A DNA stretch of 64,000 bases. Origin: Zhaonella formicivorans (GTDB lineage Bacteria; Bacillota; DUOV01; Zhaonellaceae). The DNA lies in the NCBI RefSeq assembly GCF_004353525.1, contig NZ_CP085524.1, positions 2,935,001 to 2,999,000 on the forward strand. Reading direction: 5' to 3'. Under the pieces are notes generated by a model that did not search any database, was not told the origin of the DNA, and saw nothing but the letters and a program-made list of their open reading frames with translations. Below, in pieces: positions 2,777-56,994 of the stretch (position 1 is the first letter of the stretch; every line of letters begins with the position of its first letter). The position numbers were made by a program, and so were the translations under genes.

Positions 2777-2788
2777 GAGGTGTCTATT

Positions 2789-5281
2789 ATGTGGGATAGA
2801 TTTACGGAAAGAGCACAAAGGGTCGTCAGATACGCTCAGGAGGAAGCGGCTTACTTAGGGCACCCCGCAGTAGGAACGGAGCATTTGCTGTTGGGACTAT
2901 TGCGGGAAAGCGACGGCTTTGCAGCCAAGGCATTGAATAATCTGGAAATTGATGCAGACAAAATTAGAAATGAAGTAATTAAATTGATCGGCAAAGGTGA
3001 AGTGCAGGCTAAGGAAATCGGTTTTACTCCCAGGGCAAAAAGGGTCTTAGAGCTTTCTTTGGACGAAGCCCGAAAAATGGGAGTCAATTACGTCGGTACA
3101 GAGCATATCCTTTTAGGTTTAATCAGGGAGGGAGAAGGTGTTGCTGCCAGGATTTTGGCTAACTTTGGCGTTACTGCCGACAAAGTTAGGGCGCAAGTAA
3201 TGGGTCTTTTAAGCGGTTCTGTTTCGCCTAATCAAATGAGCATCTTTTTCTTCGGTGGAGGCGGTGATACTCCAGGTGCTCCTTTAGGCCAGGCCCAAGC
3301 ACCTAAGACTGCCAAAAACAGAAGGACCTCAACTCCCACTCTGGACCAGTTCGGTCGGGATTTGACTGCTATGGCCAAAGAGAATAAGCTCGATCCTGTT
3401 GTAGGCAGGGAAAAGGAGATTGAAAGGGTAATCCAAGTTCTAAGTAGAAGAACAAAAAACAACCCGGTTTTAATCGGGGAGCCGGGAGTAGGTAAAACTG
3501 CAATTGCTGAGGGCCTGGCCCAGCGGATTGAAGAAAAACAAGTACCGGAGATACTTTTCGACAAACGGGTTGTAACCCTGGATATGTCCGGGTTGGTAGC
3601 AGGTTCAAAGTACAGGGGGGAATTTGAAGAACGTCTGAAAAAAGTAATGGAAGAAATTCGCCAGGCGGGCAACATTATTTTGTTCATTGACGAACTCCAT
3701 ACTTTAATTGGAGCCGGCGCTGCTGAAGGTGCAATTGACGCCGCAAATATTCTGAAACCTGCACTGGCCCGAGGGGAAATCCAGTGCATCGGTGCTACCA
3801 CTTTGGACGAGTACAGAAAACACATCGAAAAGGATGCGGCGCTGGAGCGGCGCTTTCAGCCTATAACCGTGGGTGAGCCTACCAAAGAAGAGGCTGTTCA
3901 GATTTTAAAAGGCTTAAGGGACAGGTATGAGGCCCACCATAGGGTTAAAATTACCGATGAAGCTATTGAAGCTGCTGTTAATCTTTCGGACCGATATATC
4001 ACTGACCGCTTCTTACCCGATAAGGCAATTGATTTAATTGATGAAGCGGCCTCCAGGGTACGGCTGAGCGTGCATACAGCGCCCCCGGAGCTAAAAGAAG
4101 TGGAAGGCCAACTGGAAGAAGTCAGAAAAGAGAAAGAAGCTGCAATTCATGCCCAAGAATTTGAAAAAGCCGCCCATTTCAGGGATAAAGAGCAGGAGCT
4201 AAAAGCCCGTTTAGAGGAAATGCAAAAAGATTGGGAGGCTAAAAAGGATACCGACAAATCCGAAGTAACTGCGGAGGATATTGCAAATATTGTTTCCAGT
4301 TGGACCGGTATTCCTGTAGCCAAGCTTGCCCAGGAGGAAAGCGAAAAGCTTTTGAAGCTGGAGGAAACGCTGCACAATAGGGTCATCGGCCAGGATGAAG
4401 CTGTCAAGGCTGTAAGCAGGGCAGTTCGCAGGGCAAGAGCCGGGTTAAAAGATCCCAAGAGGCCAATTGGTTCCTTCATTTTCCTCGGCCCCACAGGTGT
4501 GGGAAAAACAGAGCTGGCCAGAGCTTTGGCTGAAAGCCTCTTTGGAGATGAAGAGGCATTGGTGCGGCTTGACATGTCGGAGTACATGGAGAAGCATACT
4601 GTTTCCAGGCTGATTGGAGCACCTCCCGGATATGTAGGTTACGAGGAAGCGGGCCAATTAACGGAGGCGGTGCGCAGGAAGCCATATACTGTGGTGCTCC
4701 TGGACGAGATTGAAAAAGCCCATCCGGAAGTCTTTAACATTCTGCTGCAAGTATTGGAAGATGGAAGGCTGACAGATTCCAAAGGTAGGACCGTGGATTT
4801 CCGGAACACGGTAATCATTATGACCTCCAACGTAGGAGCCAGCACCATTAAACGGGAAAGGGCCCTAGGTTTCAAAGCCGGCGGGGATAACAACGATTCT
4901 TACGAAGCTATGAAGGAGCGGGTAATGGAGGAACTGAAACGCACCTTCCGGCCCGAGTTCCTGAACCGCATTGATGAACTGATTGTTTTCCATGCCTTGA
5001 GCCGCGAACACATTAAGGAAATCGTAAACCTGATGCTTAAAGATTTAAATAACAGGCTGAAAGAGCAGGGTATTACCGTGGAGGTCACTGATTCGGCCAA
5101 AGAAAAACTGGTTGAAGAAGGGTTCCATGAGGAATACGGGGCAAGGCCTTTGCGGAGGGCTATCCAACGGCTCATTGAAGATCAACTTTCCGACGGTTTG
5201 ATCGAAGGAAAGTTCAAGCTGGGGGACACGGTGGTAGCCGACCAAGTAGATGGACAGTTGGTGTTGAATAAGAAAGCTTAA
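2789..5281 (+). CDS. clpC: ClpC, AAA+ unfoldase of the Clp protease
   Basis: 830 aa. Order: two Clp N-terminal repeats (about 1-150), D1 AAA+ module with Walker [17 protein letters not shown] and Walker [15 protein letters not shown], a middle region with a UVR motif ([15 protein letters not shown]), then D2 with [16 protein letters not shown] and the ClpB-D2-small C-terminus. ATG 2789 has AGGAGGTG before it; an upstream in-frame GTG overlaps that site. It is the target of McsA/McsB-mediated delivery and works with ClpP, which is not in the window. Confidence 0.97.
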
Positions 5282-5283
5282 AG

Positions 5284-5306
5284 GACAGCGCCTCAAGAGG
5301 GCGCTA
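5284..5306 (+). repeat. Left copy of a flanking hairpin repeat
   Basis: GACAGCGCCTCAAGAGGGCG(CT) is nearly identical to the terminator hairpin at 5448-5470, but here no T-run follows. The two copies bracket the structured segment 5312-5440, as if a terminator had been duplicated around an inserted or expressed unit. Confidence 0.6.
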
Positions 5307-5311
5307 TCAAC

Positions 5312-5440
5312 TTGTAGACAAAGCCCGCATGTATTATTTCGCTCTGGACAAGCTCCTACGCCGTTACCGGCAGCAAGCTGCCGACGGCTGAGGAAACCAG
5401 TCCCGCTCCATAATACAAGCGGGCTAATAATAGTTTGTCG
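5312..5440 (+). ncRNA. Candidate structured RNA between clpC and radA
   Basis: A rod-like fold is visible. GACAAA pairs with TTTGTC, GCCCGC (5323-5328) with GCGGGC (5419-5424), TGTATTAT (5330-5337) with ATAATACA (5410-5417), GGAC with GTCC, TCCT with AGGA, GCCGT with ACGGC, and CGGCAG with CTGCCG around a CAAG loop. The internal loop lies at about 5338-5345 / 5404-5409. The overall shape (closing stem, bubble, terminal arm) recalls 6S RNA but is shorter, and I do not recognise a named family. A terminator follows. Confidence 0.45.
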
Positions 5441-5447
5441 ACGGTCT

Positions 5448-5477
5448 GACAGCGCCTCAAAAGGGCGCTTTTCTTTT
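5448..5477 (+). terminator. Rho-independent terminator upstream of radA
   Basis: AGCGCC/GGCGCT hairpin with a CTCAAAAG-type loop, followed by TTTTCTTTTT. It ends transcription from clpC or from the candidate RNA before it. Confidence 0.8.
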
Positions 5478-5481
5478 TCCT

Positions 5482-5511
5482 GATTATACCTAATAGCAAA
5501 AATGTTATAAT
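5482..5511 (+). promoter_or_regulatory. Possible radA promoter
   Basis: A perfect TATAAT at 5506-5511 lies between the terminator and radA. The -35 region (GATTAT or neighbouring bases) is weak. Confidence 0.45.
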
Positions 5512-5563
5512 GGATTATACGGCCATCGTTCGCTGCATAACATAATGAAAGAAGGGCTGAAAA

Positions 5564-6919
5564 GTGACCAGAGTTAAAACCAAGTTTATCTGCCAGGAAT
5601 GCGGCTTGGAAACGGCAAAATGGCTGGGTAAGTGCCCTGGCTGCGGGTCATGGAACACTATGATAGAAGAAAGAGCAGTACAAAAAAGTGTAAGCCTACC
5701 CCTGGCCGGTTCGGTCCCTGTTCTACTCACGGAGGTAGAATGTTCCGGACAGGAAAGATGCCAGATCGGGATTCCGGAGCTGGACAGGGTGCTGGGGGGC
5801 GGGTTGGTGGCAGGCTCCCTGGTGCTAATTGGCGGGGATCCGGGGATCGGCAAATCCACCCTGCTTTTGCAAACCGCAGCCCTGTTAGGGAAGAGCGGCC
5901 AAAAAACATTGTATGTGTCCGGGGAAGAATCGGCAGGGCAGGTGAAAATGCGGGCAGAACGCCTTGGTGTGGTAAGTAAACAGCTTTTTTTAGTTTCGGA
6001 AACAAATCTGGATTACATCGAGAATTTTGTGCGAGATATTGATCCTGCATTTTTAATTATTGATTCGGTACAGACTGTTTTTGATCCGGCTTTAACAACT
6101 GCTCCCGGCAGCGTGGGGCAGGTCAGGGAATGTACCGCCAGGCTTTTAAGAATAGCCAAGGGTCAGAACAGGACGATACTGCTGGTAGGGCATGTGACCA
6201 AAGAGGGAAACCTGGCGGGCCCAAGGGTGTTGGAACATATGGTGGACACAGTCTTATACCTGGAAGGGGAAAGGCACCATGCTTTCCGTGTCTTGCGTGC
6301 GGTCAAAAACCGTTTTGGCTCGACTAATGAAATCGGGGTTTTTGAGATGCGGGAAAGGGGCTTGGTCCAAGTAACAAATCCTTCGCAAATATTTCTGGCG
6401 GAAAGGCCCGTTGGTGCAACCGGTTCGCTGGTAGTAGCCTGCATGGAGGGAACAAGGCCGATTTTACTGGAGATTCAGGCGCTGGTTAGCGGCTCTGCCT
6501 TTGGCAATCCCCGTCGTTTGGCTACGGGTTTGGACTTGAACAGGGTGCTCTTGATGATTGCCGTGCTGGAGAAAAAAATTGGTTTAATTTTAAACAACCA
6601 GGACGTTTATTTAAATGTTGCCGGCGGTGTCAAAATTGATGAGCCTGCGGTGGATTTGGGAATTTGTCTTGCCCTGGCTTCCAGTTTTCGCAATCAGGCT
6701 GTGGACGGTGAGCTTCTGGTTATTGGTGAAGTTGGTTTGACGGGTGAAGTCCGGGCAGTTAATCAAGTGGAAAAAAGAATTTTGGAAGGGGCAAAACTCG
6801 GCTTTAAGAAATGCATTGTACCCGCAAATAATTTGCGTTACCTGGCAAAAGAGCTGCCGTTAGAAGTCGCAGGAGTAAATTCAGTTGGGGAAGCTTTAGA
6901 AATTGCGCTGGGAGGTTAA
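5564..6919 (+). CDS. radA: RadA, DNA recombination/repair ATPase
   Basis: 451 aa. N-terminal zinc finger CQEC...CPGC (residues 10-30), RecA-like core with Walker A GGDPGIGKSTLLL and the RadA signature KNRFGS (about 248-253), and a C-terminal Lon-protease-like domain. It promotes branch migration of recombination intermediates. GTG start behind AAGAAGGG. In Bacillus it works with and restrains DisA, which normally follows; here the next gene is a disA remnant 7 nt downstream, so an intact radA is left without its partner at this locus. Confidence 0.96.
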   Translation: MTRVKTKFICQECGLETAKWLGKCPGCGSWNTMIEERAVQKSVSLPLAGSVPVLLTEVECSGQERCQIGIPELDRVLGGGLVAGSLVLIGGDPGIGKSTLLLQTAALLGKSGQKTLYVSGEESAGQVKMRAERLGVVSKQLFLVSETNLDYIENFVRDIDPAFLIIDSVQTVFDPALTTAPGSVGQVRECTARLLRIAKGQNRTILLVGHVTKEGNLAGPRVLEHMVDTVLYLEGERHHAFRVLRAVKNRFGSTNEIGVFEMRERGLVQVTNPSQIFLAERPVGATGSLVVACMEGTRPILLEIQALVSGSAFGNPRRLATGLDLNRVLLMIAVLEKKIGLILNNQDVYLNVAGGVKIDEPAVDLGICLALASSFRNQAVDGELLVIGEVGLTGEVRAVNQVEKRILEGAKLGFKKCIVPANNLRYLAKELPLEVAGVNSVGEALEIALGG

Positions 6920-12042: not shown

Positions 12043-12351
12043 AAATGAAGCTGGGGCTGATAGTTGCCGGCTTAATAGACATGCTTATAGCCCATAAGCC
12101 CTAAAAGCAATGAACAGGTAGAGTAGCTAATTAACTTGCCAACCAGAGAATACTGCCTTGTGGTGGAAGCAGTTTGGCAGCGGGAATTAGTGAAGTGCGC
12201 CTTGGAGCTGAAGGCCGAACTCCTAGTAGGCTTTTCCGGTTGACACCGTTATTGTCATGGGATGAAAAATCCCTTTAGAGTGGGGTTGATTAACCCAAGC
12301 AGAGTGGAACCGCGGAACCTTTCGCCTCTGGATAGAGGTGAAAGGTTTTTT
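12043..12351 (+). promoter_or_regulatory. T-box leader, cysteine-specific, with terminator
   Basis: The T-box AGAGTGGAACCGCG is at 12301-12314. It is followed by a terminator with stem AACCTTTCGCCTC/GAGGTGAAAGGTT and a T-run (12316-12351); T-box and terminator stem are mutually exclusive. Upstream is a long Stem I region with AGAGAA (12146). The candidate specifier TGC (12196-12198) follows GAAG and precedes a purine, which reads cysteine, in accord with cysE and cysS downstream. Uncharged tRNA-Cys would prevent termination. Confidence 0.9.
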
Positions 12352-22805: not shown

Positions 22806-22839
22806 AAGCTTTGTTCCGATAAACAATATATTGTATTAA

Positions 22840-22985
22840 CTGTAGACAGCAGGTGCTTAATGCTTAATGGGTAACCGCCTGCCGAGGTTAGCTGATTTAC
22901 CGAGCTCAAGGTTATAATGCAACGAAGTATGCATAGTGTACCATGAGTATATGTTAGTAATAAGCCTCTGCTGTCTACGGCAGGG
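22840..22985 (+). promoter_or_regulatory. L10 ribosomal-protein leader
   Basis: CTGTAGACAGCAGG (22840-22853) pairs with CCTCTGCTGTCTACGG (22965-22980). Between them lies AGGTGCTTAATG...CCGCCTGCCGAGG, the conserved core of the Firmicute L10 leader. Binding of the L10(L12)4 complex is known to repress rplJL through such leaders; a T-rich stretch after the stem suits attenuation. Confidence 0.85.
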
Positions 22986-23033
22986 GCTTTCCTAATTTAA
23001 CAGCGTAAGAGTGTACGGATAGGAGGTGTGATC

Positions 23034-56350: not shown

Positions 56351-56488
56351 AGTTTAAGCATACATATTAATAGTCAGTGAGCTTTTTTGAGGCAGAATAT
56401 TTCTGACTTCAGCTTGTAGACAAATGAAAATTGCAACCCATTGTGCATAGCTGCGACATATGACAAGCCATAGAGCGCTCTGAGAAGA

Positions 56489-56578
56489 GTTTGACTGTAA
56501 GCGGACGAGCAGCATGGACGCTGCGAGAGCGGTGGAGCGATAGGACGTCGTGTCACCGCGTGCCGCTGGAAGTCAAAC
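56489..56578. ncRNA. Candidate three-way-junction RNA element in the truA-MFS gap
   Basis: GTTTGAC pairs with GTCAAAC and AGCGG with CCGCT to close the element. Inside are two hairpins, GCAGC/GCTGC (56509-56524) and GCGGTG/CACCGC (56529-56559). The strand cannot be told from pairing alone. A weak ORF reads across it. No Rfam-type family recognised. The rest of the 644-bp gap holds copy D of the dispersed element, CCTTATG/CATAAGG hairpins, and an unconvincing TATAAT at 56881. Confidence 0.4.
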
Positions 56579-56580
56579 GT

Positions 56581-56660
56581 AAAGGAGACTTGGCTTGTGC
56601 CAAGCGTGAGCGCCGGCAGAAGTCTAGTCGCCCTTATGCGGTCGCTCATAAGGCTTGCTT
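56581..56660 (-). repeat. Dispersed intergenic element, copy D (inverted, diverged)
   Basis: On the minus strand it reads CCGCATAAGGGCGACTAGAC, CTTCTGCCGGCGC and then CACAAGCCAAG with TCTCCTTT. These are the blocks of copies A and E in the same order, with substitutions. Confidence 0.55.
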
Positions 56661-56994
56661 AGAGCCTGAGCAGGGCAGCGCTCTTGGCGAGAGTCTTTGG
56701 AGCAGCTGACACAAGGGTTAACATTTTGAGGGTAGTTTTTAGCCAGACTTGATGTACTGGCTTAACTGTTTTTAAAAAGGGAACATACGACTTATCCTGT
56801 TGAATTAGCACTAGTTTAAAAAAATATGGTTTTTCCGGCGTTCCTAAGACGATGATGGCAGAATTATGCAGAAGACGCGGTATAATAGAAACTGATGGCC
56901 AGAGGTTTCTGGAATACTTTTATTTTCGCCGCAACGGGCAAATTAGGCTATTTATAACCAAGAAACAGCTGAGCGTAGGAAGGGAACTACAAAA

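Follow-up and report, generated by a model that had tools for sequence, protein, structure and literature searches.

The 141 bp at positions 5308 to 5448 (Table 1) of the window (the whole stretch of 64,000 nucleotides analysed here, positions 2,935,001 to 2,999,000 of the Zhaonella formicivorans contig NZ_CP085524.1) are very probably a MITE that owes its transposition to an IS1182-family DDE transposase acting in trans and targeting terminator-like hairpins by shape, a reading drawn from sequence comparison. In textbook DDE transposition, the length of the target duplication is a fixed property of the enzyme. Here the duplication length follows the target hairpin, and this implies an enzyme that gauges a folded target or cuts around it. 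Such a mechanism would account for terminators doubled around a stable rod in this genome, which may pass for small RNA genes, and dozens of natural insertions together with an intact source insertion sequence (IS) make it directly testable.

Table 1 Features of the locus between the clpC-like gene and radA, in window coordinates
Feature	Position	Strand	Remarks
clpC-like gene, ClpA/ClpB-type ATPase, upstream	2780..5281	+	no NCBIfam model above cut-off
Left target-hairpin copy (target-site duplication, 23 bp)	5285..5307	+	matches right copy at 21 of 23; folds as hairpin; no T-run after it
Very probable A-type MITE of an IS1182-family IS, 141 bp, CAA...CTG	5308..5448	+	genome repeats; direct repeats; ends of the G340 IS
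Left terminal inverted repeat CAACTTGTAGACAAA	5308..5322	+	majority of copies: CAGCTTGTAGACAAA
Covarying rod core, 102 nt	5323..5424	+	fold z -6.60; covariation; 9 of 398 phylum genomes
Right terminal inverted repeat TTTGTCGACGGTCTG	5434..5448	+	
Right target-hairpin copy (target-site duplication, 23 bp)	5449..5471	+	T-run retained on this copy
Terminator T-run TTTCTTTTT	5470..5478	+	first two bases inside duplication
radA, downstream neighbour	5564..6919	+	TIGR00416, 621.7 bits (cut-off 403.05)

The locus between clpC and radA

The preliminary description of this locus recorded a structured region at 5284-5477, with two near-identical AGCGCC-loop-GGCGCT hairpins of which the second alone carries a T-run, and all of this is borne out. 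For the full 194 nt the folding energy is -85.8 kcal/mol (z = -7.46), a value equalled by none of 200 shuffles. The hairpins, at 5287-5305 and 5451-5469, differ in a single loop base and reach -11.5 and -11.3 kcal/mol when folded singly. The second hairpin, with its T-run, is the sole terminator-like site in a terminator scan of 5200-5600, which is weak evidence by itself, with shuffled sequences averaging 0.6 sites. Folded separately, the rod gives -49.7 kcal/mol and the 141-nt element a z of -5.30; the rod is longer in the fold of the whole region because the arms of both duplicated hairpins pair with each other. The upstream gene is one that we take to be clpC from its gene context.

Two explanations had been offered for this arrangement, a 6S-like small RNA with its own terminator and an insertion that duplicated the clpC terminator, and it is the insertion that proves right. 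The element, whose boundaries are set by the flanking direct repeats, leaves room for at most 47 codons, carries 15-bp imperfect inverted repeats and recurs at 40 or more dispersed places. It lies within a target-site duplication, as do 39 of 49 copies genome-wide, and its termini are those of an element encoding an IS1182 transposase, a source IS found in another genome. The doubled hairpin goes beyond chance, since the identical arrangement is seen at these 39 copies, the window copy included.

Between the clpC-like gene and radA, the genomes of the relatives G001, G002, G302, G340, and G380 have a single terminator hairpin and no element when read by eye, and folds were computed for three genomes. 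This comparison concerns orthologous gaps in other genera and not the very same site; the gap was readable in five of the six genomes searched, the contig of the sixth (G145) ending too close to radA.

Copies and flanking hairpins in the genome

A search of the Z. formicivorans genome (3,314,304 bp in one contig) returned at least 47 matches at no fewer than 40 distinct places, both counts being lower bounds with 40 of 94 candidates scored. Further copies were added by searching with the left and right element ends, allowing up to 2 mismatches. By our reading, the genome holds about 69 full or partial relatives: 40 from the sequence search, 17 in loci L041-L057, 11 in L083-L095, and one at window position 56410. 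End matches in L058, L059, L090, and L092, and one of the two in L057, were judged to be chance. When the copies were read together with the adjoining sequence, the ends of most proved to be CAGCTTGTAGACAAA and TTTGTCGACGGTCTG. Paired ends of class A, to which the window copy belongs, span 139-155 bp; class B (199-203 bp) is class A plus a palindromic insert of about 60 bp; and class C (264-268 or 408 bp) has a different interior, in which the model of the rod core matches nothing.

A second family member, of the C type, lies in the window itself at 56410-56740, with the left end TCAGCTTGTAGACAAA and a degraded right end. The insert of the B-type copies, present in L036, L038, L039, L040, L043, L044, L047, L048, L051, L052, L053, and L083, is CAGGGGACACACC...TGTCCCC or a close variant, and resembles dispersed REP-like repeats. 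L024, L026, L029, and L057 have a core whose orientation is reversed with respect to the ends, a state that recombination between the rod's inner arms might have produced. A composite is present at L031, L032, L033, and L083, where GACAGACACCCATGCTGCTG or a variant close to it links the right end of an A or B element to a C-like module.

Pairing ends that lie 100-520 bp apart and aligning their flanks gave 71 rows, which correspond to 49 distinct copies. Direct repeats of 16-31 bp (median 22) flank 39 of these, namely 28 of 33 class A, 5 of 10 class B, and all 6 class C copies. Flank alignment scores were 11 or more in 56 of the 71 rows; among 4,970 mismatched pairs the 99th percentile was 9. 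This control reaches a maximum of 23 and takes in opposite-strand rows of the same copies. The repeats are centred on a hairpin and approximately equal it in length; both hairpins of one locus are copies of each other, and their sequence differs between loci. The longer the better-preserved hairpin of a locus, the longer the repeat (r = 0.93, n = 39), a correlation possibly raised by anchoring the hairpin search at the element end and obtained with end and hairpin finders of our own scripting. A first estimate that took the right copy only, decayed hairpins included, was r = 0.68 for 40 copies. The dyad symmetry of the right repeat copy averages 0.65 in register and 0.19-0.29 at shifts of 1 to 6 bases, and because symmetry exists in register only, the repeats are the hairpins. 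A T-rich tract (at least 6 T in 10) lies past at least one side at 33 of the 39 copies, and with respect to the T-run the element has no clearly preferred orientation (18 right, 15 left, 6 equal; n = 39).

Clear duplication is absent from the remaining 10 of the 49 copies. Three of them (L031, L032, and L083) terminate in a composite that includes another module, four (L030, L044, L053, and L057) have a clear hairpin adjoining the right end and no left copy, and three (L039, L040, and L046) are weak or short.

Source insertion sequence and proposed mechanism

The MITEs now seem to be orphans in Z. formicivorans, since no related transposase gene was found in its genome, where the candidate transposase of G340 has no match. 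The genome's own DDE_Tnp_1 transposases were rejected as the source; the three IS groups among them that are repeated (about 1719, 1707, and 2016 bp) differ from the MITEs in their ends, and no hairpin duplication was seen at these groups by eye. A right-end search of G380, G340, and G145 yielded end pairs 1.6 kb apart in G340, a distant relative, and the same kind of search in G001 and G002, read from match positions only, revealed no convergent pair.

G340 carries eight copies of an IS of 1610-1612 bp whose ends, CAGCTTGTAGACAAA and TTTGTCGACAGTCTG, equal the common MITE ends; about 15 bp at each end is all the sequence that the IS and the MITE share. The one long frame of this IS, with 492 aa in the copy that was read, encodes an IS1182 transposase (NF033551, 464.6 bits against a cut-off of 270) with the domains DDE_Tnp_1_6, DUF772, and DDE_Tnp_1. 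Five copies are intact across the full query and the remainder are interrupted. Seven of the eight are flanked by two copies of one hairpin, two of these seven being in tandem, and the eighth (L172) is flanked by two different hairpins. The tandem copies, L173 and L176, have one hairpin between them in common, as if a hairpin copy produced by the first insertion had served as the target of the second.

Relatives of this transposase at E 1e-60 or better occur in 21 of 398 genomes of the phylum, G340 included. The search returned 30 loci without using palindromes as a selection criterion; 9 were set aside as too near a contig end, and 21 were examined, 20 by script and one (L233) by hand. Both of the G340 loci among the 21 show the hairpin-repeat pattern. 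Outside G340, 13 of 19 loci (8 genomes, 43-88% identity) have palindrome-containing direct repeats of 20-35 bp adjoining CAG/GAG-type ends. Symmetry about the centre is at least 0.8 in 11 of these 13; the other two, L242 and L256 (0.41 and 0.55), have a palindrome that sits off-centre within the repeat. Across the 15 patterned loci (the 13 plus the two of G340), symmetry is 0.82 in register versus 0.23-0.32 when shifted. G380, of the same genus as G340, has the same MITE as Z. formicivorans, with ends of like kind, between hairpin repeats of 22 and 26 bp.

The other six of the 19 loci are without one shared hairpin. In L233, L239, and L257 a different hairpin adjoins each end, which we infer to result from later recombination between copies. 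L238 has a hairpin on the left only, and L249, a partial frame, has one on the right. L251 (in G385) is an IS1182 relative at 34% identity, in which an inverted repeat reaches well past the CGCGGGTCTGTTGACAAA end; this long repeat may derive from a hairpin that was split or replaced, or the terminal repeats may simply be longer.

That many relatives duplicate hairpins of varied sequence and length suggests that the transposase recognises the shape of a hairpin and not its sequence. On either side, the element directly adjoins the base of the hairpin. The hairpin is duplicated in full, and the duplications, 16-31 bp long, therefore vary with hairpin length. In the mechanism that we propose, an extruded (cruciform) hairpin would be recognised as the target, strand transfer at the two 5' feet of the hairpin would produce a staggered cut of hairpin width, and gap repair would copy the hairpin onto both sides, with the MITE presumably mobilised in trans by the IS1182-family transposase. 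Insertion between the stop codon and the T-run leaves one working terminator, so terminator sites are probably harmless havens.

The rod core, alternative readings and known systems

The covariance model of the 102-nt core was built from 47 of 53 distinct core sequences, leaving out three near-duplicates, the second L017 copy, one truncated, and one divergent sequence. With stricter filters it matches 9 of the 398 phylum genomes, that of Z. formicivorans included; no Rfam family matched the core. In a structure-free alignment of the 47 sequences, which come from 3 genomes, compensatory changes occur in 6 of 19 predicted pairs. A larger alignment, of 83 matches from 78 loci of our choosing (74 distinct rows, 9 genomes), has compensatory changes in 16 of 21 pairs and pairing in 95.4% of cells versus 26-42% when slid, with none of 500 shuffles reaching the observed values; this alignment, fitted to the model, leans towards it and was itself the basis of the structure, and its copies are related. 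Compensatory changes, which the preliminary description had named as a check on a small RNA, are thus present in the rod, but they are spread across dispersed mobile copies and not a conserved gene locus.

Compensation in a palindromic element can come from template switching. Simple palindrome correction would fail to account for the core, since it should erase loops, yet the loops are conserved while the helices change with compensation; the conserved internal loops speak for some function of the core. Cores in G002, G302, and some copies in G145, G083, and G117 have no visible ends of the element type, and by our reading related ends are visible near some cores in G083, G117, and G145. In G083, variable pairs sit between conserved outer and inner pairs, which by our reading lends no support to target DNA as the origin of the rod's outer stem outside Z. 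formicivorans. We consider it doubtful that the core is a maintained functional module, as an RNA or single-stranded DNA fold, that has passed from one bacterial family to another, in part enclosed by IS1182-type transposon ends and in part by some other route.

It is very unlikely that the rod is itself the active agent, a self-contained structured element mobilised as RNA or single-stranded DNA, with the terminal repeats as passengers. The strong core covariation and the cores without element-type ends would fit such an agent, but hairpins are duplicated at all six paired-end C-type elements, and the core model finds no match at E up to 10 in nine loci, the C-type holders and two G340 IS loci. 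It is thus the ends, and not the core, that accompany this mode of insertion. A gene at 5284-5477 for a dedicated small RNA, whether 6S-like or not, with a terminator of its own could likewise produce a very stable fold and a covarying core, and its probability is nonetheless close to nil. The covariance-model search proposed in the preliminary description (Rfam 6S and all families) gave nothing at the gathering threshold; a permissive threshold gave 8 weak matches, none of them 6S, the lowest E-value being that of Hammerhead_HH9 (16.9 bits versus 52, E 0.089). No sigma-70-like promoter was found in 5200-5600, the relatives in the genome are dispersed, the orthologous gaps of five relatives are without the element, and the hairpin adjoining the element varies from copy to copy. 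Known RNA families are present elsewhere in the window, as a T-box leader (12101-12332) and an L10 leader (22822-23002).

According to PMC5678879 and PMC4923244, IS1272, of the same transposase family, targets and replaces hairpins. By this route the target hairpin at 5284-5477 would have been replaced and the flanking hairpins would come from elsewhere, for example from two pre-existing tandem terminators. The different hairpins at the two ends of L172, L233, L239, and L257 agree with such an origin. However, hairpins are within-locus copies that differ between loci at most paired-end copies, one hairpin occupies the orthologous gap of five relatives, and hairpin repeats surround all but one of the source IS copies. 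The loss of a hairpin without target duplication is not what we found, the whole hairpin being duplicated, and we regard this route as extremely improbable.

A MITE of an IS1182-family IS with duplicated target hairpins can be set beside several known systems. Group IIC introns insert at terminator hairpins by structure recognition, through RNA-based retrohoming next to the hairpin. They have the terminator hairpin as target in common with the present element, and unlike it they are not known to have terminal inverted repeats or hairpin duplication. Cas1-Cas2 duplicates the palindromic CRISPR repeat by strand transfer at the repeat's two ends; this is an analogy of geometry only, Cas1-Cas2 being an unrelated enzyme and the repeat sequence being fixed. 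The rod with an internal bubble is like that of 6S RNA, but a covariance-model match to 6S is absent and the element is dispersed and mobile. MITEPye1 of Paracoccus yeei, associated with ISPye18 (IS1182 family), is also a MITE with IS1182-type terminal repeats folding into a long stem-loop; it has 4-bp direct repeats and 1-3 copies per chromosome, and the accessible text of PMC11578231 contains no hairpin duplication for it, unlike the duplication seen here. Whole-hairpin duplication is drawn as a hypothetical pathway b in Fig. 13 of PMC5678879, and a remark by Siguier et al. (2015) on palindromes is relayed there and in PMC4923244. Beyond this drawn possibility, the literature searched, which took in few subscription journals and some sources in part, offered no account of an IS1182 member duplicating a whole hairpin, and the IS1182 lineage described here, with its MITEs, would be a variant in this respect. 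It is like IS1272 and the composite TnSha1 of Staphylococcus, as presented in PMC5678879 and PMC4923244, in its transposase family and in hairpin targets that are often transcription terminators and are chosen by structure, with no sequence consensus for IS1272; in IS1272 the hairpin is deleted or replaced with no target duplication, whereas here the whole hairpin is duplicated.
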